A stretch of DNA of 64,000 nucleotides from Thiorhodovibrio frisius (GCF_033954835.1 NZ_CP121471.1:3962501-4026500); one strand, 5' to 3'; numbered from the stretch's first letter, positions 12,314 to 22,702 are shown. Translations and numbers: made by a program. The notes: a model not told the origin generated them from the letters alone.

Positions 12314-13729
12314 CTAGAGCAACCCATCCAACGGACTGCGCACCCCCTGACCGCCACGGTTCAACACATGGGTATAAATCATCGTGGTTGACACATCCGC
12401 ATGCCCCAATAACTCCTGCAAGGTGCGAATGTCATAGCCGGATTCCAGCAAATGTGTCGCAAACGAATGGCGCAGACAATGGCAGTTTACCTTCTTCGTA
12501 ATCCCCGCCCGTTGCGCCGCGGCCTTCACCGCCTTCTGCAAGCTATTCTCATGCACATGGTGCCGGCGCGTCTTGCCGCTGCGCGGATCAACCGACAGCC
12601 GACCACTCGGAAACACATATTGCCAAATCCACTCCTTGGGTGCATGCGGCCATTTGCGCGCTAGAGCATCCGGCAAAAACACCTCCCCATGGCCCGCGGC
12701 GAGATCCTGCTCGTGCAATGCGCGCACCTTGCGCAATTGCTCCCGCAAGGGCTCCTCCAAACGCACCGGCAGCGGCACCAACCGATCCTTCTGCCCCTTG
12801 CCATCGCGAACAAGAATCTGATGATAACTGAAGTCGATATCCTGCACTCGTAACCGCATGCACTCCATCAACCGCATCCCGGTACCGTAAAGCAAAGCCG
12901 CCATGAGATGCTGGACGCCCTCGATCCCACTTAGCAATCGTGCGACCTCCCCGCGCTCCAGCACCACCGGCAGTCGCTTCGGCCGTTTCGCGCGCGCAAA
13001 ATCCCCAAGCTCCTCCAGCGACCGCCCGAGCACCTGTTTGTACAGAAACACCAGCGCATTCAATGCTTGATTCTGGGTACTCGCCGAGACATTGCCGCGC
13101 ACCGCCAAGTCCTCCAGGAACGCGCGAATCCGCTCAGCGCCAACATCCGCCGGGTCCCGCTGATCGCAGAACAGAATAAAACGGCACACCCAGGCTTCAT
13201 AAGACTGCTCCGTGCGAATCGAATAGTGCCGTCGCCGAATCTCCCCCACCATGCGCTCCAGCAACGGCCGATGCGCCTCCCTCACCTGGTCGAGCGCCGA
13301 GGTCGCATTCCGCTTCTCCTTTAACCGGGCACCCGATACCGGAGATTCCTCAAACGCAGGCGTCTCCCGTGCCACAGTCGGGTGATCCGCCTCCAAGGTT
13401 CGCGCCGAGGCCCGCCAAAAGTCCCAATCCACCTCCGCCGCCACCGGCGCCTTTGCAGTCACCAGCAAATTCTGTATAGCATCGACGATTTGCACAAACT
13501 GCCAGTCAGAAATTCTGTCTAGCCGCCCAGCCTGTTGCAGATAGCCGGTCACGTCATCAAGCTTATGTTGCTTCAGGCGCTTGCCCGGAAAGGCCGCAAG
13601 ATAGGCTTCCGCCCGGCGTACCAGCCATCGAAGCGCATTCTCCTTGACGCCGGCTTGAACGGCTCGGGCGATGAATTGATCCCAAAACCGATCCTTGGCC
13701 GTTGGTCCTGTTGCTTGAGGTTTCGGCAT
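12314..13729 (-). CDS. intI: Integron integrase (IntI) with N-terminal extension
   Basis: This is a tyrosine recombinase of 471 residues. The C-terminal catalytic domain shows the arginine in [15 protein letters not shown], the HxxR box [15 protein letters not shown], the later histidine in [18 protein letters not shown] and the tyrosine nucleophile in the same stretch. The IntI-specific patch is present between them ([16 protein letters not shown]), and the ending [17 protein letters not shown] is diagnostic of integron integrases. Class 1 IntI is about 337 residues; here about 130 extra residues precede the SAM-like core domain. It is divergent from the cassette array, as expected. No LexA box was recognised upstream. 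Confidence 0.95.
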
Positions 13730-13893: not shown

Positions 13894-14133
13894 TCAGATA
13901 AACGCCTTCCATTCGGATCCGTCGTGGTCAAAGCGATATTTTGTGTCAGGTTGACCGCCGGAAAACGTGTCAATTTTGTCAACATCCGGGTATAGATATT
14001 GAGCAATCTTTATTGCACCACCCATGTCGCAACAATTCATGTCAGGCAAATCTAAAGCGAGGTGACGGTCGCCAACAACACGCCAGGATTGCCAGCGACA
14101 TTGCAAATCTTTGTTCCAACAATCGTTACTCAT
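13894..14133 (-). CDS. Cassette 1 protein, unknown
   Basis: This 79-residue protein fills the first cassette but reads toward the integrase. A good ribosome binding site (GGAGAG) lies 6-7 bases before its ATG, in minus-strand sense. It contains a Cys pair (DMNCCDMGGAIK) and an acidic C-terminal half (GGQPDTKYRFDHDGSEWKAF). No family is recognised. Being antisense to the cassette direction, it would not be expressed from an attI-proximal promoter and would need its own. Confidence 0.55.
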   Translation of the reverse strand: MSNDCWNKDLQCRWQSWRVVGDRHLALDLPDMNCCDMGGAIKIAQYLYPDVDKIDTFSGGQPDTKYRFDHDGSEWKAFI

Positions 14134-14155
14134 AATTCTCTCCGGTTAAAAATTA

Positions 14156-14215
14156 ACCTAACGATTGCATCCAGCCGACGCGCCAATAGCGCGCGGCTGA
14201 TGCGGGGCGTTAGGC
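14156..14215 (+). other. attC1 recombination site
   Basis: This is a 60-bp imperfect palindrome from ACCTAAC (14156-14162) to GTTAGGC (14209-14215). The inner arms are CAGCCGACGCGC and GCGCGCGGCTG around a short loop. It is nearly identical to attC2, so cassettes 1 and 2 probably came from one source. Confidence 0.9.
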
Positions 14216-14223
14216 ATGAACAT

Positions 14224-14439
14224 TTAGCATCGCGCTGGCCCATAACTGAATCGCGTCATGTTCCGAATCGATAACTGGGCAATTCGTTTTTGATTAGGCC
14301 AGAATCGTTTTGGAAAGCAAAACTGATTTTGATAACGAACCTGGATCGCAACATAACGCATATCGCAATCATGGCGCGTATGTTGGTAATATCGTGATCG
14401 ATTCATCATTGTGATGTAGTCGCGCTGTTGTGATGTCAT
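14224..14439 (-). CDS. Cassette 2 protein, unknown
   Basis: This small antisense cassette gene encodes a 71-residue protein rich in Arg, Tyr and Gln (MTSQQRDYITMMNRSRYYQ at the start). A ribosome binding site GAGAGGATC precedes the start in minus-strand sense. No domain is recognised. The size and position fill the cassette between attC1 and attC2, which supports it being the cassette gene, though its composition is unusual. Confidence 0.45.
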   Translation of the reverse strand: MTSQQRDYITMMNRSRYYQHTRHDCDMRYVAIQVRYQNQFCFPKRFWPNQKRIAQLSIRNMTRFSYGPARC

Positions 14440-14461
14440 TGTGATCCTCTCGATAAAACAA

Positions 14462-14521
14462 GCCTAACCCTAGCATCCAGCCGACGCGCGAATAGCGCGC
14501 GGCTGATGCGGGGCGTTAGGC
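14462..14521 (+). other. attC2 recombination site
   Basis: The site runs from GCCTAAC (14462-14468) to GTTAGGC (14515-14521). Its arms and loop almost repeat attC1. Confidence 0.9.
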
Positions 14522-14704
14522 TGACAAAGCTTTAGCCGCATAGCGCGCCGCTGATTGGTATTCACGGATAAAATCGAAACGCGCTCTGTGCAAGTCATCT
14601 TCAGTAAGCCATTTTCCGCACCGAATACAGCGCTGCCGCTGAGGGAAAGTCCAGTTGAAATACAATTCAGGCGGGCGTACTTTATGCTCGCATTGATCAT
14701 TCAT
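14516..14704 (-). CDS. Cassette 3 small zinc-ribbon-like protein
   Basis: I choose the ATG at 14704 because a GGAG ribosome binding site precedes it; an upstream in-frame start would lie across attC3. The 62-residue product has a Cys in MNDQCEHK and a CIRCGKW motif, a possible metal-binding ribbon, followed by a helical basic/aromatic tail. The stop codon TAA is the complement of the TTA at the cassette boundary (14516-14518), so the gene uses exactly the cassette edge as its end. It is antisense to attC. Confidence 0.6.
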   Translation of the reverse strand: MNDQCEHKVRPPELYFNWTFPQRQRCIRCGKWLTEDDLHRARFDFIREYQSAARYAAKALSA

Positions 14705-14721
14705 GTTTATCTCCAAAATTA

Positions 14722-14780
14722 GCCTAACGAGGTGCTGCACCGGACGCCGGAATACGGCGCCGGTGAGCCGGGCGTTAGGT
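14722..14780 (+). other. attC3 recombination site
   Basis: This 59-bp site runs from GCCTAAC (14722) to GTTAGGT (14774-14780), with inner arms CACCGGACGCCG and CGGCGCCGGTG. Confidence 0.88.
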
Positions 14781-14909
14781 GGAACCGCCGTCAGCCAAAG
14801 GTAATGTGCCGTCGTGGACATATTCAGCAGCACGATGCAAGCCAACCATATTCAAGATTTGCATCGCAGGGTGGGCAAAAAGATTGTGAACAAACCAGCT
14901 TCTAAACAT
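14775..14909 (-). CDS. Cassette 4 micro-protein, 44 residues
   Basis: A short antisense frame begins at ATG 14907-14909 and ends at the TAA formed by TTA 14775-14777 in the cassette boundary. The product begins MFRSWFVHNLFAHPAMQIL and ends in TLPLADGGST. The WxVHNLxxHPxM...LP pattern resembles short uncharacterised phage and bacterial proteins. A G-rich ribosome binding site (AGGGGG) precedes the ATG. It fills the coding part of its cassette, the main reason to accept so short a gene. Confidence 0.5.
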   Translation of the reverse strand: MFRSWFVHNLFAHPAMQILNMVGLHRAAEYVHDGTLPLADGGST

Positions 14910-14915
14910 GAAACC

Positions 14916-15021
14916 CCCTAACAAGTTGCTCAAGGCGACGCCAAACCGCGCTTTGAGCTTGGGTTAAAAGATCGGGCTTTGTGCCCAGCGCGGTTTGGCG
15001 CGCCTTAGCTTGTCGTTAGGC
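14916..15021 (+). other. attC4, long attC site
   Basis: This 106-bp site runs from CCCTAAC (14916-14922) to GTTAGGC (15015-15021). The arms GCGACGCCAAACCGCGCT and AGCGCGGTTTGGCGCGCC pair around an extended loop, as in long VCR-like sites. Confidence 0.85.
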
Positions 15022-15028
15022 GGAAAAA

Positions 15029-15388
15029 TCACCTGCGGCAACTTTTGCATTGAATGTTTACATCTGTGTGAGATAACGGATTGCATCCGTCATCAAAAAA
15101 CACTGTGCCGCAAATTGACGAAGTGCAGCCCTTGCGAAAGAAATGGGCTTTACCCATGCTTTCGTATTTGTACCATCCTGACTTTGGCACACGGTTGCGC
15201 TGATAGATTCCATACGGGTTTTTCGCATCATCTGGAGCGTTTATCCCAATATTCCATCCTTCATCATAAGCAATGCAAAGTTCAAGTTCCGTTCCAGGGT
15301 CATAAATCACAACGGGGTCTTTTCTGTTATGCCCGTGATACCAACCTTCTTTTTTTGCAAGCCTGACTCGCTCTTGTTTTCTTTTCAT
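15029..15388 (-). CDS. Cassette 5 protein, unknown
   Basis: The ATG at 15388 gives a 119-residue product. An earlier in-frame ATG lies inside attC5 and is less likely. The protein is basic at its N-terminus (MKRKQERVRLAKKEGWYHG), then aromatic and acidic (YDPGTELELCIAYDEGWN), and ends Cys-rich (DVNIQCKSCRR). No family is recognised. It is the fifth consecutive cassette gene oriented toward the integrase. Confidence 0.6.
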   Translation of the reverse strand: MKRKQERVRLAKKEGWYHGHNRKDPVVIYDPGTELELCIAYDEGWNIGINAPDDAKNPYGIYQRNRVPKSGWYKYESMGKAHFFRKGCTSSICGTVFFDDGCNPLSHTDVNIQCKSCRR

Positions 15389-15408
15389 TTGATCCACCAA
15401 ACAAAACC

Positions 15409-15478
15409 GCCTAACAAGCCGCTGCATCCGATCCAGGTTTCGCTCTCGCTCAACCTGGCCGGCTGAGCTTGGGCGTTA
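15409..15478 (+). other. attC5, interrupted by intron 1
   Basis: The left part runs from GCCTAAC (15409-15415) through arms GATCCAGG and CCTGGCCGGCTGAGC to GTTA (15475-15478). The core is completed by GGT at 17570-17572 after the intron, restoring GTTAGGT. The intron therefore sits inside the right-hand core box, after GTTA. Confidence 0.85.
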
Positions 15479-17569
15479 GTGCGCCAAGCGAAGCTTGGCG
15501 CTTCTTGCCGGGTGAAAGTCCCGGTCGGGTAAGGGCTAGCCACCCACCCGTATCGCGTGTTGCGCCTCTGGCGGATAGCGACGCACTGGTCAGGAGACTG
15601 GTGCTATCGTGAACAAAAGAGGTGAAGCGTACATAGAGAAACTTGTAGGCCAGAGGGGTGTACGCACCACCCTGAAGCGATTTCAGCCTCGTTAAAAGCA
15701 TTAAAGCAGACGGCGACAGGGTTAACGACCTGGAAGCCAACACAGAGGACTCAATAGAACGACGATGGGCAAGATATTGTGGCACTGCCGGGAAACCAGG
15801 CAGCAAACAGAGAAAACAAACGTTGCCCTAAGGTCGTTCACGGCGAGAGTCCCGAGGGTCTGTCGGGGTCCGAGCGCCTGGCATGCAAGCACAGAAGCGT
15901 CGAGAACTTGGGAGACCCCATCAGCTCCCGGCGGGAGAGGTAAGGCATGCGGTTATTGAGACACACAGGGGGAAACCCCGAAACGGAATTAGACCGAAGC
16001 CTAGAGCCGACCGACCGGGGAAGCGCAACTGACCGAGAAGGAAGGTTCGCCGGAAGCGGATGGGGAGTCAGACCGACTCATAGTACTCCGAGCGCGGGAG
16101 AGCCGCGTACATGGGAAAGGGGTCGGCGAAGTGATGCAGCCAACAAAGGACACTTCACCCAGACACGACGGGCTGGACCATGAAGCAAACCTCCCTGTTG
16201 GGAATAGCGAAAAAGGCGGCATCGGACAAGGCCCATCGATTCCGCAACCTCTTTGGCCTGCTCAACGTCAGCTATCTTCTGGCCTGTTGGCGGCTGATTA
16301 ACAAAGGTGCGGCCAGCGGTGTCGACCGACTGGATGCCCGCGCCTATGAAGCCAACCTTCAGGACAATGTAGAAGCACTGGCGGCGGCGGTCAAAGGGGG
16401 ATGGTATCGGGCCAAGCTGGTACTGAGAAGATACATCCCCAAGCTCAACGGAAAGTTGAGGCCATTGGGGATTCCGGCCATCGCGGACAAAGTGCTCCAG
16501 ATGGGGGTTACCAAGATACTGGAAGAGATTTATGAGCAGGACTTTCTGGACTGTAGCTATGGTTACCGACCTCGGGTTGGTGCCCTGGATGCAGTGCGAG
16601 ACCTGAGCGCCGAGCTGCGAAGCGGGCGTTATCACTTCCTGGTCGAGGCGGATATTCGCGCATTCTTTGATCGAATCGATCACGATACACTGATCGAACT
16701 GTTGCAGCGACGGATAGACGATGAACCCTTTTTGCGGCTGATTCGCAAGTGGTTAAAGGCCGGCGTTTTGGAGCCAGATGGCGCGGTTCAGCATCCCAAG
16801 ACAGGCTCGCCCCAGGGCGGGATCATCTCCCCGATGCTTGCGAATATCTATCTCCACTACGCGCTAGATGAGTGGTTTGAGAACACGGTCAAGACACATT
16901 GCAAAGGGAAAGCGTACCTCTGTCGGTATGCCGACGATTTTGTGTGCGCGTTTGAATGTGAGTTCGACGCCCAGCGCTTTTATCGGGTGCTTGGGTTGCG
17001 GATGGAGCGGTTCGGGCTGGAAGTCGCGCAAGAGAAAACGCAGTTGCTGCGGTTCTCGCGTCAGGACTGGACGCGTAACGGCACCTTTGAGTTTCTCGGA
17101 TTCGAGTTTCGCTGGGGACGAGGGCGTTGGGGAAAACCCGCGCTCAAACGGCGCACGGCACGGAAGAAATACCGCGCCTCCCTGGCCAGTTTTCGAGACT
17201 GGTGTCGGGCACACTGCCGGATGCACAAGGACAAGTTCTTCGCGGCTCTCAATGCGAAGCTGCGCGGGTACTACAATTACTACGGTATCCGAGGCAACTC
17301 CGACAGCCTGGGTGACTTTTTCTACCATGTCACACGCATGCTCTACCGGGAGCTGAATCGCCGCAGTCAGCGGCGCAGTTACAACTGGAAGGGCTTTGCC
17401 GAACTGATCAAGGTGTTCAAGCTTGAGCGACCACGAATCTGCCACAGCTTCTGAGTATTCTGCAATGTTGCCGCGTGCGAAGCGAATCATTTCGAGGAGC
17501 CCGGTGCGGTAGTTCCGCACGCCGGGATCTGTACGGGGGCGGCCGGGTAACTGGCCGTCCTACCGTGAT
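15479..17569 (+). mobile_element. Group II intron copy 1 (IIC-attC type)
   Basis: The element is 2,091 bp, starting GTGCGCC and ending CCGTGAT. The 5' 700 bases would form ribozyme domains I-III, and domain IV holds the reverse transcriptase gene. Domain V is the hairpin at about 17495-17531 (AGC, then CCCGGTGCGG paired with CCGCACGCCGGG). Domain VI follows (CGGCC...GGCCG with an unpaired-A loop) up to the 3' end. The ends are fixed by the second copy, which has the same limits but different 3' flank. Insertion in an attC core and lack of an endonuclease domain place it with class IIC-attC introns. Confidence 0.9.
16180..17454 (+). CDS. Group II intron reverse transcriptase/maturase, copy 1
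   Basis: The 424-residue protein (intron domain IV) has reverse transcriptase blocks in order: GAASGVDRLDAR, the block with LRPLGIPAIADKVLQM, FVE-like LVEADIRAFFDRIDHD (first catalytic Asp), GSPQGGIISPMLANIYLH, and the active site CRYADDFVCAF near residue 250. The maturase (X) domain occupies the last ~110 residues (LRGYYNYYGIRGNS onward). No HNH endonuclease follows, as in class C introns. It aids splicing and target-primed insertion into DNA. The product is the same as that of copy 2. Confidence 0.95.
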   Translation: MKQTSLLGIAKKAASDKAHRFRNLFGLLNVSYLLACWRLINKGAASGVDRLDARAYEANLQDNVEALAAAVKGGWYRAKLVLRRYIPKLNGKLRPLGIPAIADKVLQMGVTKILEEIYEQDFLDCSYGYRPRVGALDAVRDLSAELRSGRYHFLVEADIRAFFDRIDHDTLIELLQRRIDDEPFLRLIRKWLKAGVLEPDGAVQHPKTGSPQGGIISPMLANIYLHYALDEWFENTVKTHCKGKAYLCRYADDFVCAFECEFDAQRFYRVLGLRMERFGLEVAQEKTQLLRFSRQDWTRNGTFEFLGFEFRWGRGRWGKPALKRRTARKKYRASLASFRDWCRAHCRMHKDKFFAALNAKLRGYYNYYGIRGNSDSLGDFFYHVTRMLYRELNRRSQRRSYNWKGFAELIKVFKLERPRICHSF

Positions 17570-17779
17570 GGTGTAATCAATCGGAACTTTCTTTGTAAAC
17601 ACATCCGCAACATCCTTGGCGACGGTCCTGTGATGAACATCATCCTCGTCGGCTATCTCGCGAAATGACTTACCAAGAACGCAATATCTGTAAGCTCTTT
17701 CTTTTTTAAGATCAGATGCAGTACTCAAACCGCAAAGCCGTGAGAACTCGTCTTCTGTCAGTCGTTTGTATACAGGCAT
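17417..17779 (-). CDS. Cassette 6 gene, extended into intron 1
   Basis: The original gene is 17570-17779: 70 codons beginning MPVYKRLTEDEFSRLCG and containing a helix-turn-helix-like stretch (GKSFREIADEDDVHHRTVAK). Before intron insertion the frame would have read ...DYT followed by TAA, the stop being the TTA of the attC core now at 15476-15478. The intron separated that stop from the gene, so the frame runs on into intron sequence for 50 more codons to 17417. The native product may be a small DNA-binding protein; the extended tail (R- and P-rich) is probably meaningless. Confidence 0.6.
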   Translation of the reverse strand: MPVYKRLTEDEFSRLCGLSTASDLKKERAYRYCVLGKSFREIADEDDVHHRTVAKDVADVFTKKVPIDYTITVGRPVTRPPPYRSRRAELPHRAPRNDSLRTRQHCRILRSCGRFVVAQA

Positions 17780-17784
17780 GAATC

Positions 17785-17876
17785 ACCTAACAAGCTGCTC
17801 CAGCCGACCCCGCGCGTCGGCTTGTTTTGTTTTCCTTCAGCACCGTACCAGCGCGGGTCGGCTGAGCTTGTCGTTA
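17785..17876 (+). other. attC6, interrupted by intron 2
   Basis: The site runs from ACCTAAC (17785-17791) to GTTA (17873-17876), continuing after the intron at 19968 with GCG. Long arms CAGCCGACCCCGCGC and GCGCGGGTCGGCTG pair well. The rejoined core GTTAGCG departs from GTTRRRY at one purine position and at the last base. Confidence 0.85.
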
Positions 17877-19967
17877 GTGCGCCAAGCGAAGCTTGGCGCT
17901 TCTTGCCGGGTGAAAGTCCCGGTCGGGTAAGGGCTAGCCACCCACCCGTATCGCGTGTTGCGCCTCTGGCGGATAGCGACGCACTGGTCAGGAGACTGGT
18001 GCTATCGTGAACAAAAGAGGTGAAGCGTACATAGAGAAACTTGTAGGCCAGAGGGGTGTACGCACCACCCTGAAGCGATTTCAGCCTCGTTAAAAGCATT
18101 AAAGCAGACGGCGACAGGGTTAACGACCTGGAAGCCAACACAGAGGACTCAATAGAACGACGATGGGCAAGATATTGTGGCACTGCCGGGAAACCAGGCA
18201 GCAAACAGAGAAAACAAACGTTGCCCTAAGGTCGTTCACGGCGAGAGTCCCGAGGGTCTGTCGGGGTCCGAGCGCCTGGCATGCAAGCACAGAAGCGTCG
18301 AGAACTTGGGAGACCCCATCAGCTCCCGGCGGGAGAGGTAAGGCATGCGGTTATTGAGACACACAGGGGGAAACCCCGAAACGGAATTAGACCGAAGCCT
18401 AGAGCCGACCGACCGGGGAAGCGCAACTGACCGAGAAGGAAGGTTCGCCGGAAGCGGATGGGGAGTCAGACCGACTCATAGTACTCCGAGCGCGGGAGAG
18501 CCGCGTACATGGGAAAGGGGTCGGCGAAGTGATGCAGCCAACAAAGGACACTTCACCCAGACACGACGGGCTGGACCATGAAGCAAACCTCCCTGTTGGG
18601 AATAGCGAAAAAGGCGGCATCGGACAAGGCCCATCGATTCCGCAACCTCTTTGGCCTGCTCAACGTCAGCTATCTTCTGGCCTGTTGGCGGCTGATTAAC
18701 AAAGGTGCGGCCAGCGGTGTCGACCGACTGGATGCCCGCGCCTATGAAGCCAACCTTCAGGACAATGTAGAAGCACTGGCGGCGGCGGTCAAAGGGGGAT
18801 GGTATCGGGCCAAGCTGGTACTGAGAAGATACATCCCCAAGCTCAACGGAAAGTTGAGGCCATTGGGGATTCCGGCCATCGCGGACAAAGTGCTCCAGAT
18901 GGGGGTTACCAAGATACTGGAAGAGATTTATGAGCAGGACTTTCTGGACTGTAGCTATGGTTACCGACCTCGGGTTGGTGCCCTGGATGCAGTGCGAGAC
19001 CTGAGCGCCGAGCTGCGAAGCGGGCGTTATCACTTCCTGGTCGAGGCGGATATTCGCGCATTCTTTGATCGAATCGATCACGATACACTGATCGAACTGT
19101 TGCAGCGACGGATAGACGATGAACCCTTTTTGCGGCTGATTCGCAAGTGGTTAAAGGCCGGCGTTTTGGAGCCAGATGGCGCGGTTCAGCATCCCAAGAC
19201 AGGCTCGCCCCAGGGCGGGATCATCTCCCCGATGCTTGCGAATATCTATCTCCACTACGCGCTAGATGAGTGGTTTGAGAACACGGTCAAGACACATTGC
19301 AAAGGGAAAGCGTACCTCTGTCGGTATGCCGACGATTTTGTGTGCGCGTTTGAATGTGAGTTCGACGCCCAGCGCTTTTATCGGGTGCTTGGGTTGCGGA
19401 TGGAGCGGTTCGGGCTGGAAGTCGCGCAAGAGAAAACGCAGTTGCTGCGGTTCTCGCGTCAGGACTGGACGCGTAACGGCACCTTTGAGTTTCTCGGATT
19501 CGAGTTTCGCTGGGGACGAGGGCGTTGGGGAAAACCCGCGCTCAAACGGCGCACGGCACGGAAGAAATACCGCGCCTCCCTGGCCAGTTTTCGAGACTGG
19601 TGTCGGGCACACTGCCGGATGCACAAGGACAAGTTCTTCGCGGCTCTCAATGCGAAGCTGCGCGGGTACTACAATTACTACGGTATCCGAGGCAACTCCG
19701 ACAGCCTGGGTGACTTTTTCTACCATGTCACACGCATGCTCTACCGGGAGCTGAATCGCCGCAGTCAGCGGCGCAGTTACAACTGGAAGGGCTTTGCCGA
19801 ACTGATCAAGGTGTTCAAGCTTGAGCGACCACGAATCTGCCACAGCTTCTGAGTATTCTGCAATGTTGCCGCGTGCGAAGCGAATCATTTCGAGGAGCCC
19901 GGTGCGGTAGTTCCGCACGCCGGGATCTGTACGGGGGCGGCCGGGTAACTGGCCGTCCTACCGTGAT
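17877..19967 (+). mobile_element. Group II intron copy 2 (IIC-attC type)
   Basis: This element has the same 2,091-bp length, ends and internal order as copy 1, lying exactly 2,398 bp downstream of it. By eye the two copies match over every line compared, including the reverse transcriptase gene. Domain V is at about 19893-19929 and the element ends at CCGTGAT (19967). It is inserted after GTTA of the next attC, in the same orientation. The near-identity implies very recent retrotransposition or array duplication. Confidence 0.9.
18578..19852 (+). CDS. Group II intron reverse transcriptase/maturase, copy 2
   Basis: This 424-residue protein has the same amino-acid sequence as the copy-1 product. 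The active-site YADD, the GSPQGGIISPMLAN block and the maturase domain are intact. It differs only in genomic position, so functions (splicing and mobility) should be interchangeable between copies. With two intact enzymes and intact ribozyme ends, the intron is likely still mobile. Confidence 0.95.
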   Translation: MKQTSLLGIAKKAASDKAHRFRNLFGLLNVSYLLACWRLINKGAASGVDRLDARAYEANLQDNVEALAAAVKGGWYRAKLVLRRYIPKLNGKLRPLGIPAIADKVLQMGVTKILEEIYEQDFLDCSYGYRPRVGALDAVRDLSAELRSGRYHFLVEADIRAFFDRIDHDTLIELLQRRIDDEPFLRLIRKWLKAGVLEPDGAVQHPKTGSPQGGIISPMLANIYLHYALDEWFENTVKTHCKGKAYLCRYADDFVCAFECEFDAQRFYRVLGLRMERFGLEVAQEKTQLLRFSRQDWTRNGTFEFLGFEFRWGRGRWGKPALKRRTARKKYRASLASFRDWCRAHCRMHKDKFFAALNAKLRGYYNYYGIRGNSDSLGDFFYHVTRMLYRELNRRSQRRSYNWKGFAELIKVFKLERPRICHSF

Positions 19968-20038
19968 GCGCATCTAAATTTTAAGCCATGGGGGTTTTAA
20001 AGGATAGATGCCGTAAACGATGAGTGAGGTGAGATTTT

Positions 20039-20383: not shown

Positions 20384-20455
20384 GCCTACCACGGTGCTCC
20401 AGCCGAAGCCGGTTTCGCTCTCGCTTAACCGGCTCGGCTGAGCTTGGCGTTAGGC
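20384..20455 (+). other. attC7 recombination site
   Basis: The site runs from a degenerate left core GCCTACC (20384-20390) to GTTAGGC (20449-20455). Arms CAGCCGAAGCCGGTT and AACCGGCTCGGCTG pair well. The inner part is nearly the same as the orphan attC remnant at 33951. Confidence 0.82.
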
Positions 20456-21378: not shown

Positions 21379-21439
21379 GCCTAACCATGGCTTTCATCCG
21401 GGCGCGCAAATAGCGTGCCGGCTGATGCTGGCATTAGGC
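21379..21439 (+). other. attC8, right core mutated
   Basis: The site runs from GCCTAAC (21379-21385) to ATTAGGC (21433-21439). The first base of the right core is A rather than G, next to the expected crossover, so this site may be impaired. Confidence 0.75.
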
Positions 21440-21664: not shown

Positions 21665-21877
21665 ATGCGCTATGCAATTGTCATTGAGAAATCAGAAAGC
21701 AACTTCTCAGCATATGTGCCGGATTTGCCCGGATGTATCGCAACTGGCGCTACAGTTGCCGAAGTAGAATCCGAAATCCGGGAAGCAATCGCCTTTCACC
21801 TAGAAGGTATGCGGGAAGACGGCATGCCCCCTCCGATGCCACAAAGTCAGGTGGAGTACGTTGATATAGCCGCCTAA
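21665..21877 (+). CDS. hicB: HicB-type antitoxin (cassette 9)
   Basis: This 70-residue protein has the partial RNase-H-like fold of HicB (MRYAIVIEKSESNFSAYVPD, LPGCIATGATVAEVE). The family helix REAIAFHLEGMREDG and the ending PPPMPQSQVEYVDIA are present. There is no separate DNA-binding tail. The stop TAA lies inside the left attC core GCCTAAC, a compact cassette layout. It neutralises the upstream hicA product. Confidence 0.9.
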   Translation: MRYAIVIEKSESNFSAYVPDLPGCIATGATVAEVESEIREAIAFHLEGMREDGMPPPMPQSQVEYVDIAA

Positions 21878-21935
21878 CGATAGCCTACAGTCCGACCGCT
21901 CGCTACGCTCGCGGCGGCTGGAGCTGGCGTTATGC
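21872..21935 (+). other. attC9, right core degenerate
   Basis: The site runs from GCCTAAC (21872-21878) to GTTATGC (21929-21935). Its stem CCGACCGCTCGCTACGC and GCGGCGGCTG is shared almost exactly with attC11. The right core breaks the purine run. Confidence 0.78.
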
Positions 21936-22130
21936 CTTAAAAAACATTTAGTAGTGCCCCTGCTTATATGATGAAGATCAAGCCAAGCTACTGATAACGA
22001 AGGCTTGAAGGGTTTTTTCGTCCTATAGGTTGTGGTACTACCCTCAAAATATTATTTTACTGTAGGAGATTATCAAATTAATGAGGCCAGGTTATATTTT
22101 AATTCCACCAATCGAAACAAACGAAAAAAC
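21936..22130. other. Cassette 10, no gene seen
   Basis: No convincing reading frame of useful length exists on either strand. The segment is AT-rich, has a T6 run after GAAGG (about 22010-22020), and contains GAGGCCAGGTTATATTTTAATT at 22083-22104. It may supply a promoter to the hicAB cassette that follows. Confidence 0.5.
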
Positions 22131-22191
22131 GCCTAACGTTGGTATTCAGCCAAGCACGCATATAGCGCGCCGGATGGTGCTGGCGTTAGGC
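22131..22191 (+). other. attC10 recombination site
   Basis: This 61-bp site runs from GCCTAAC (22131-22137) to GTTAGGC (22185-22191), with both core boxes intact. Confidence 0.85.
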
Positions 22192-22432: not shown

Positions 22433-22644
22433 AAGCTCACTACAGTATTGTCATTCAATGGTCTGAGGAGGACAACTGCTATATTGCATCTCTCCCAGAA
22501 TTTGGCCCTTACGCGTTAACTCACGGCAGCACCTACCATGATGCTTTAAATAGAGCACAAGAAGTGCTGGAATTGCTAATAGATACAACATCTCCATTGC
22601 CTTATCCACAAACTTTCCAGGCTTCTAATATGAAAATTGCCTAA
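22429..22644 (+). CDS. hicB: HicB-type antitoxin (cassette 11)
   Basis: This 71-residue HicB partner begins MKAHYSIVIQWSEEDNCYIA, followed by SLPEFGPYALTHGSTYHDAL and the helix NRAQEVLELLID. It is translationally coupled to hicA by a 4-base overlap. The stop TAA is within the left core of attC11, as in cassette 9. No extra DNA-binding domain is present. Confidence 0.9.
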   Translation: MKAHYSIVIQWSEEDNCYIASLPEFGPYALTHGSTYHDALNRAQEVLELLIDTTSPLPYPQTFQASNMKIA

Positions 22645-22702
22645 CGATGGGCTCCAGTCCGACCGCTCGCTACGCTCGCGGCGGCTGAGGCTGGCGTTGG
22701 AT
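22639..22702 (+). other. attC11, last attC of the array
   Basis: The site runs from GCCTAAC (22639-22645) to GTTGGAT (22696-22702), which satisfies GTTRRRY. The inner stem matches attC9. No further attC is seen to its right until the orphan at 33951. Confidence 0.83.

Follow-up and report, generated by a model that had tools for sequence, protein, structure and literature searches.

What kind of element has settled in two adjacent recombination sites of a single integron, and what guides it there? The question is raised by a 64,000-nucleotide stretch of the Thiorhodovibrio frisius genome (GCF_033954835.1, NZ_CP121471.1:3962501-4026500; hereafter the window, with positions counted from its first letter), in which two copies of one group II intron occupy the neighbouring attC sites attC5 and attC6, at 15479-19967. 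It is very probable that this is a recently active intron of class E, with IIB-like RNA features and a reverse transcriptase (RT) lacking the endonuclease (En) domain, that it does not belong to group IIC, and that it was inserted separately into the two sites.

The two copies (copy 1, 15479..17569; copy 2, 17877..19967; both on the plus strand, as are all intron features given below) are 2,091 nucleotides long, show no mismatch when compared base by base, and share the ends GTGCGCC...CCGTGAT exactly. An earlier note on this DNA, made from the sequence alone, had described two elements of this length with common ends and a common 424-residue RT, lying after GTTA in the cores of attC5 and attC6 and only 307 bases apart (17570-17876). 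Its coordinates and ends prove exact, the alignment that it recommended gives the identity just stated, and the placement is confirmed by the 5' exons, which end in ...GGGCGTTA and ...TGTCGTTA and belong to two distinct attC hairpins. The four flanks are all different, which makes a simple tandem or assembly duplication unlikely. The RT/maturase (16180..17454 and 18578..19852; 424 residues, identical in the two copies) has a YADD motif and no D/En domain, and is matched by TIGR04416 with 336.7 bits against a cutoff of 300. Hallmarks of a mobile group II intron, as the note had it, are present in the sequence: ends of the form GTGCG...GAT (GUGYG...RAY), a domain I-IV core matching Rfam RF02005 (group-II-D1D4-6) with 74.3 bits (15515..15798; copy 2, 17913-18196), a domain V with the sequence GAGCCCGGUGCGGUAGUUCCGCACGCCGGGAUC and an AGC triad (17496..17530; copy 2, 19894-19928), and a domain VI stem with a candidate branch-point A 8 nt from the 3' end (17532..17567; copy 2, 19930-19965).

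The choice of site appears to be written in the intron RNA. A terminal loop, GGUUAACGACC (15720-15730), holds UAACGA (15723..15728; copy 2, 18121-18126), the complement of (U)CGUUA and hence of the attC core. In about 66 related introns, drawn from several phyla, the loop and the end of the 5' exon covary (CAAGAC/GTCTTG, CAAAAG/CTTTTG, CAACAA/TTGTTG, AGTTAT/ATAACT and CGCATC/GATGCG), and in the 17 introns without UAAC in the loop the mean pairing is 5.5 bp, compared with 3.7 bp in 1,000 shuffles (maximum 4.9). Because the two covary, they can be identified with good confidence as exon-binding site 1 (EBS1) and intron-binding site 1 (IBS1). By eye, no shared complement that would represent an IBS2-EBS2 pairing was seen in the six copies of the intron found in this genome. 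Judged with a strict attC test, a home-made structural filter with a background of 3.8%, introns with a UAAC loop lie at attC sites in 19 of 49 cases and the others in 1 of 17 (p = 0.013), the sole exception being a CAACGCC loop that faces an attC reading GGCGTTG. In every strict attC insertion the EBS1 loop can pair with GTTR, and none of the introns with a clearly different EBS1, among the 66 relatives, is found at such a site. These relatives resemble a natural experiment, and their distribution points to EBS1 as the main target determinant.

The genome, a single 5.417-Mb contig, contains six full-length copies of the intron, each with unique flanks. Five are identical and the sixth, at 938487, differs by one substitution (T to G at intron position 475). 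Three of the six are at attC sites, namely the twins and the copy at 938487, which lies in the bottom strand of an attC; two older remnants, at 2000026 and 944818, also begin at attC-like hairpins. The copy at 3917585-3919675 lies in sense orientation within an outer-membrane exopolysaccharide gene. Its exact removal between GTTA and G restores a frame of 412 codons, with the predicted junction ATGTCGTTA|GAGGCG, which fixes the intron boundaries and suggests that splicing would keep the gene usable. The copy at 3527071-3529161 splits a spacer of a CRISPR (clustered regularly interspaced short palindromic repeat) array, 1 nt from the repeat and with type III cas genes alongside; the array that bears it (L030:7770-10563; 3526769-3529562) has 11 repeats, and the intron is antisense to the cas genes. 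The copy at 2838663 is intergenic, flanked by yhdP and an amidase gene. One congener (G001) lacks the intron at the exopolysaccharide and yhdP/amidase sites and carries its own copy, 97% identical, elsewhere; in another (G002) the yhdP/amidase site is empty. The suggestion in the earlier note that the copies are recent fits well with these empty sites and with six copies that are identical or one base apart.

The same note had taken the element for a class C intron of the attC subgroup (IIC-attC), and this assignment is contradicted by the RT tree, the Rfam model, the domain V triad, the length of the EBS1-IBS1 pairing and the target site. The location in attC sites and an RT without an En domain, as in class C, do speak for it. 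However, the RTs of the Eubacterium rectale IIC intron, of GsI-IIC and of Kl.pn.I3, which interrupts an attC and was published as a group IIC intron (PMC5027574), form one clade with a class C-like RT of Shewanella saliphila at a support of 1.0, and the intron studied here falls outside it. Its RNA, like that of the S. saliphila integron intron, is matched by Rfam D1D4-6, whereas two IIC controls are matched by D1D4-3 and D1D4-1. Domains V and VI are present in the folded RNA, but they and the pairing lack the marks of group IIC, in which the triad is CGC and not AGC, and the IBS1-EBS1 pairing is 3-4 bp and not about 6 bp (PMC7923331). The IIC-attC introns, moreover, target the attC bottom strand, entering R'' at TTGT|T, and run opposite to the cassettes (PMC7923331), whereas the intron in this integron is inserted at GTTA|G and runs with the array. 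Membership of the IIC-attC group is accordingly most improbable. Of the two RTs found in S. saliphila, the one borne by an attC (L127/L187) clusters with the RT of this intron (support 0.90), and the S. saliphila integron intron is published as bacterial class E (PMC9229058); it is on this ground that the intron is called class E, with IIB-like RNA in view of the IBS1 of about 6 bp and the AGC triad.

Whether the attC hairpin itself contributes to the choice of site is a separate matter. A strict hairpin is present at 20 of the 54 insertion sites that end in GTT, as against 350 of 9,266 GTT[AG] sites on the same contigs (p = 3e-15). It could be argued that this link is a by-product, with only the 6-nt EBS1-IBS1 match counting, attC cores happening to contain it, and the hairpin being irrelevant. 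The copies at TCGTTA|G in a gene and in a CRISPR spacer, both without an attC, are what such an argument would predict, as is the lack of strict attC sites at the introns with a clearly different EBS1. We nevertheless consider it unlikely, since the enrichment survives comparison with controls matched for CGTTAG (37% against 15%, p = 6e-5, in a control that includes, and is raised by, the insertion sites themselves) and since attC-like hairpins accompany half of the intact copies and, likewise in this genome, both older remnants. Of 24 CGTTAG controls in 201 kb of the genome, 2 have a strict hairpin. A looser hairpin test, passed by 38 of 68 sites, was dropped as 37% of control sites passed it too. 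The invaded strand, as judged by arm asymmetry, was the top strand in 13 of the 20 cases and the bottom strand in six, with one tie; the measure is crude, having scored attC5 as 'bottom' though it is top by its position in the array. The top strand would thus be favoured, but not exclusively so. As to a replication-strand bias relative to dnaA (genome position 355), the intron orientations are mixed and too few. Several of the related loci also contain an integrase gene.

The twins are best explained by two separate insertions, because all four of their flanks differ. An alternative is that a single retro-insertion was followed by cassette shuffling by the integrase, or by homologous recombination. 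An intron in the R' box joins the next cassette, which the integrase IntI could move, and the junction after copy 2 (GTTA|GCGC) is off the attC consensus; both features are compatible with such a history. It is rather improbable all the same, given that the 5' and 3' exons differ, that a duplicated intron cassette would have brought cassette 6 along, and that four further copies indicate that retro-insertion is common in this genome. That the second copy is an artefact of assembly is a suspicion naturally aroused by identical repeats of 2.1 kb, but with unique sequence on both sides of every copy and a genome in one contig there is scarcely any room for it. Some observations do weigh against the view of a recently active class E intron that was inserted twice at attC. 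The RT tree comprises 68 RTs, among which the Protein Data Bank (PDB) and Kl.pn.I3 sequences are partial (the Kl.pn.I3 of p1220-IMP is truncated), and the clade that joins this intron to that of S. saliphila has a support of 0.90; the class E label comes from that one published relative and not from a curated database. Three of the six copies are outside attC and conform to the 6-nt IBS1 alone, in one case (CGATTA) poorly, which shows that the hairpin is not essential. The identity of the copies could also partly reflect gene conversion.

On the preferred reading of two insertions, the following scheme can be proposed. A ribonucleoprotein of the intron RNA and the En-lacking RT would reverse-splice at CGTTA|G in DNA that is single-stranded or extruded as a hairpin. 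EBS1 (UAACGA) would pair with the six bases that directly precede the insertion point, (T)CGTTA, and the first base of the 3' exon, a G, would complete the recognised target. The attC hairpin just upstream would make insertion more likely, probably because it presents the strand in single-stranded form, and target-primed reverse transcription would then copy the inserted intron. In this way the intron would become the front end of the cassette that follows, and IntI might move the cassette that bears it. The guide step is supported by the covariation described above. Use of the extruded hairpin and the priming step are proposed by analogy with known En-minus introns; current activity, splicing and mobilization by IntI of the intron-bearing cassette are inferred.

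The host integron consists of intI (12314..13729, minus strand; 471 residues; TIGR02249, 472.5 bits) followed in the window by about 11 attC sites, all in one orientation, in agreement with the definition of an integron as intI with at least two attC sites in one orientation. Uninterrupted sites, all on the plus strand, are attC1-attC4 (14159-14215, 14465-14521, 14725-14779 and 14919-15021) and, downstream of the introns, those at about 20384-20455, 21382-21439, 21875-21936, 22134-22191 and 22642-22700; arm asymmetry is alike in all seven that could be scored. The integrase model covers residues 157-470 of IntI only, leaving an N-terminal extension of about 155 residues that recurs at L039 (80% across the full length), L158 and L087. 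The first of these represents a second integron integrase, 80% identical, in the same genome (L039:762-2189, at about 3.07 Mb), and a fragment of the same intron (positions 1713-1817) is found a few kilobases from it, at L039:6242-6346. Many further group II cores of the D1D4-6 type are found in this genome, at L040:2505-6762, L036, L034, L035 and about 20 other places. Some apparently have no open reading frame (ORF), and three are arranged head-to-tail with a period of 801 bp, possibly a tandem family of ORF-less introns.

The interrupted sites are attC5, which runs up to GTTA at 15409..15478 (plus strand) and whose empty form is completed by GGTG at 17570, and attC6, which runs up to GTTA at 17785..17876 (plus strand) and is continued by GCGC at 19968. 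Integron recombination has its crossover point at G|TT. With insertion after GTTA, the intron accordingly forms the 5' part of the next cassette. Of the invaded site, R'', L'', L' and GTT are left in place; as the intron begins with GTG, the R' box becomes GTTAGTG. Both introns are in the sense orientation relative to the promoter Pc and run in the direction of the array. The cassette between them (cassette 6, 17570..17876, 307 bp) carries an ORF on the minus strand (17417..17779), of 70 codons in the empty site, whose TAA stop is formed by the attC core. Insertion abolishes this stop and extends the frame by 50 codons into the intron, a cost of the insertion to cassette 6. Copy 1, cassette 6 and attC6 make up a block flanked by attC on both sides, which IntI might excise as a unit, and it is possible, as the earlier note proposed, that the bracketing twins could mobilise the cassette or cause its deletion. 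The position of the intron as the 5' part of the next cassette suggests the former, more specific route. The first cassettes (13894-15427 and 17570-17779) have minus-strand ORFs, the reverse of the usual cassette direction, and beyond 20039 the ORFs are on the plus strand. The sequence that follows copy 2 (GTTA|GCGC; 17873-19975) deviates from the GTTRRRY consensus of most other attC sites; it may be a rearranged or degenerate cassette start.

The prevailing view is that integrons are invaded mainly by the IIC-attC lineage, and this has been used to argue that introns helped to build cassettes. A second lineage that targets attC, outside group IIC and apparently of independent origin, differs in both ribozyme class and insertion point and would make attC targeting a convergent strategy. 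The code would be a simple one, EBS1 being complementary to the attC core, and a changed EBS1 should steer the intron off attC, a shift that has apparently occurred naturally in several relatives; an intron placed past the crossover point should travel with its cassette. In its widest form, which we put forward tentatively and at somewhat less than even chances, the proposal is that attC targeting arose at least twice, that in a multi-phylum class E lineage an EBS1 reverse-complementary to the attC core became fixed, and that insertion past the crossover leaves attC nearly intact and so loads introns onto cassettes that the integrase can move. Neither an EBS1-attC rule for class E nor a lineage-wide preference for attC was found in the open-licence papers searched, which is weak evidence of novelty.

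Among known systems the closest is the integron intron of S. saliphila JCM 32304 (PMC9229058), whose RT is 49% identical, whose RNA also matches Rfam D1D4-6, and which likewise follows ...GGCGTTA| of an attC beside intI, with UAACGCC as its EBS1. A single copy was found in that genome, compared with six here, and the accessible part of the paper mentions it simply as a class E intron of the integron, with no target rule and no lineage-wide preference for attC. Pairs of related elements in one array have parallels. The class E (IIB) fragments H.ha.F1 and H.ha.F2 of Halorhodospira halochloris (PMC7923331) also lie two in one CALIN array (cluster of attC sites lacking integron integrases), but both are 5'-truncated, with the target site unreadable, and they are likened here by their description. 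In Catenovulum sediminis two neighbouring attC sites hold related copies, the second of which is partial; in Desulfonema magnum an attC-like hairpin is followed by a short 5' piece of a related intron (L108:4180-4420), and a second intron start lies 177 bp further on, after another hairpin ending in GTTA. UHB.I2 (IIB1/CL1; PMC7923331) is likewise found directly after an attC and in cassette orientation, but it is of class CL1, is a single case and has the boundaries UUGCG..GU. The IIC-attC introns, such as S.ma.I2 and Kl.pn.I3, share retro-insertion at attC hairpins and an RT/maturase without En, and differ in RT clade and RNA class, in inserting at TTGT|T in R'' and in an IBS1 of 3-4 bp, whereas the lineage described here uses GTTA|G, an IBS1 of about 6 bp and either strand.

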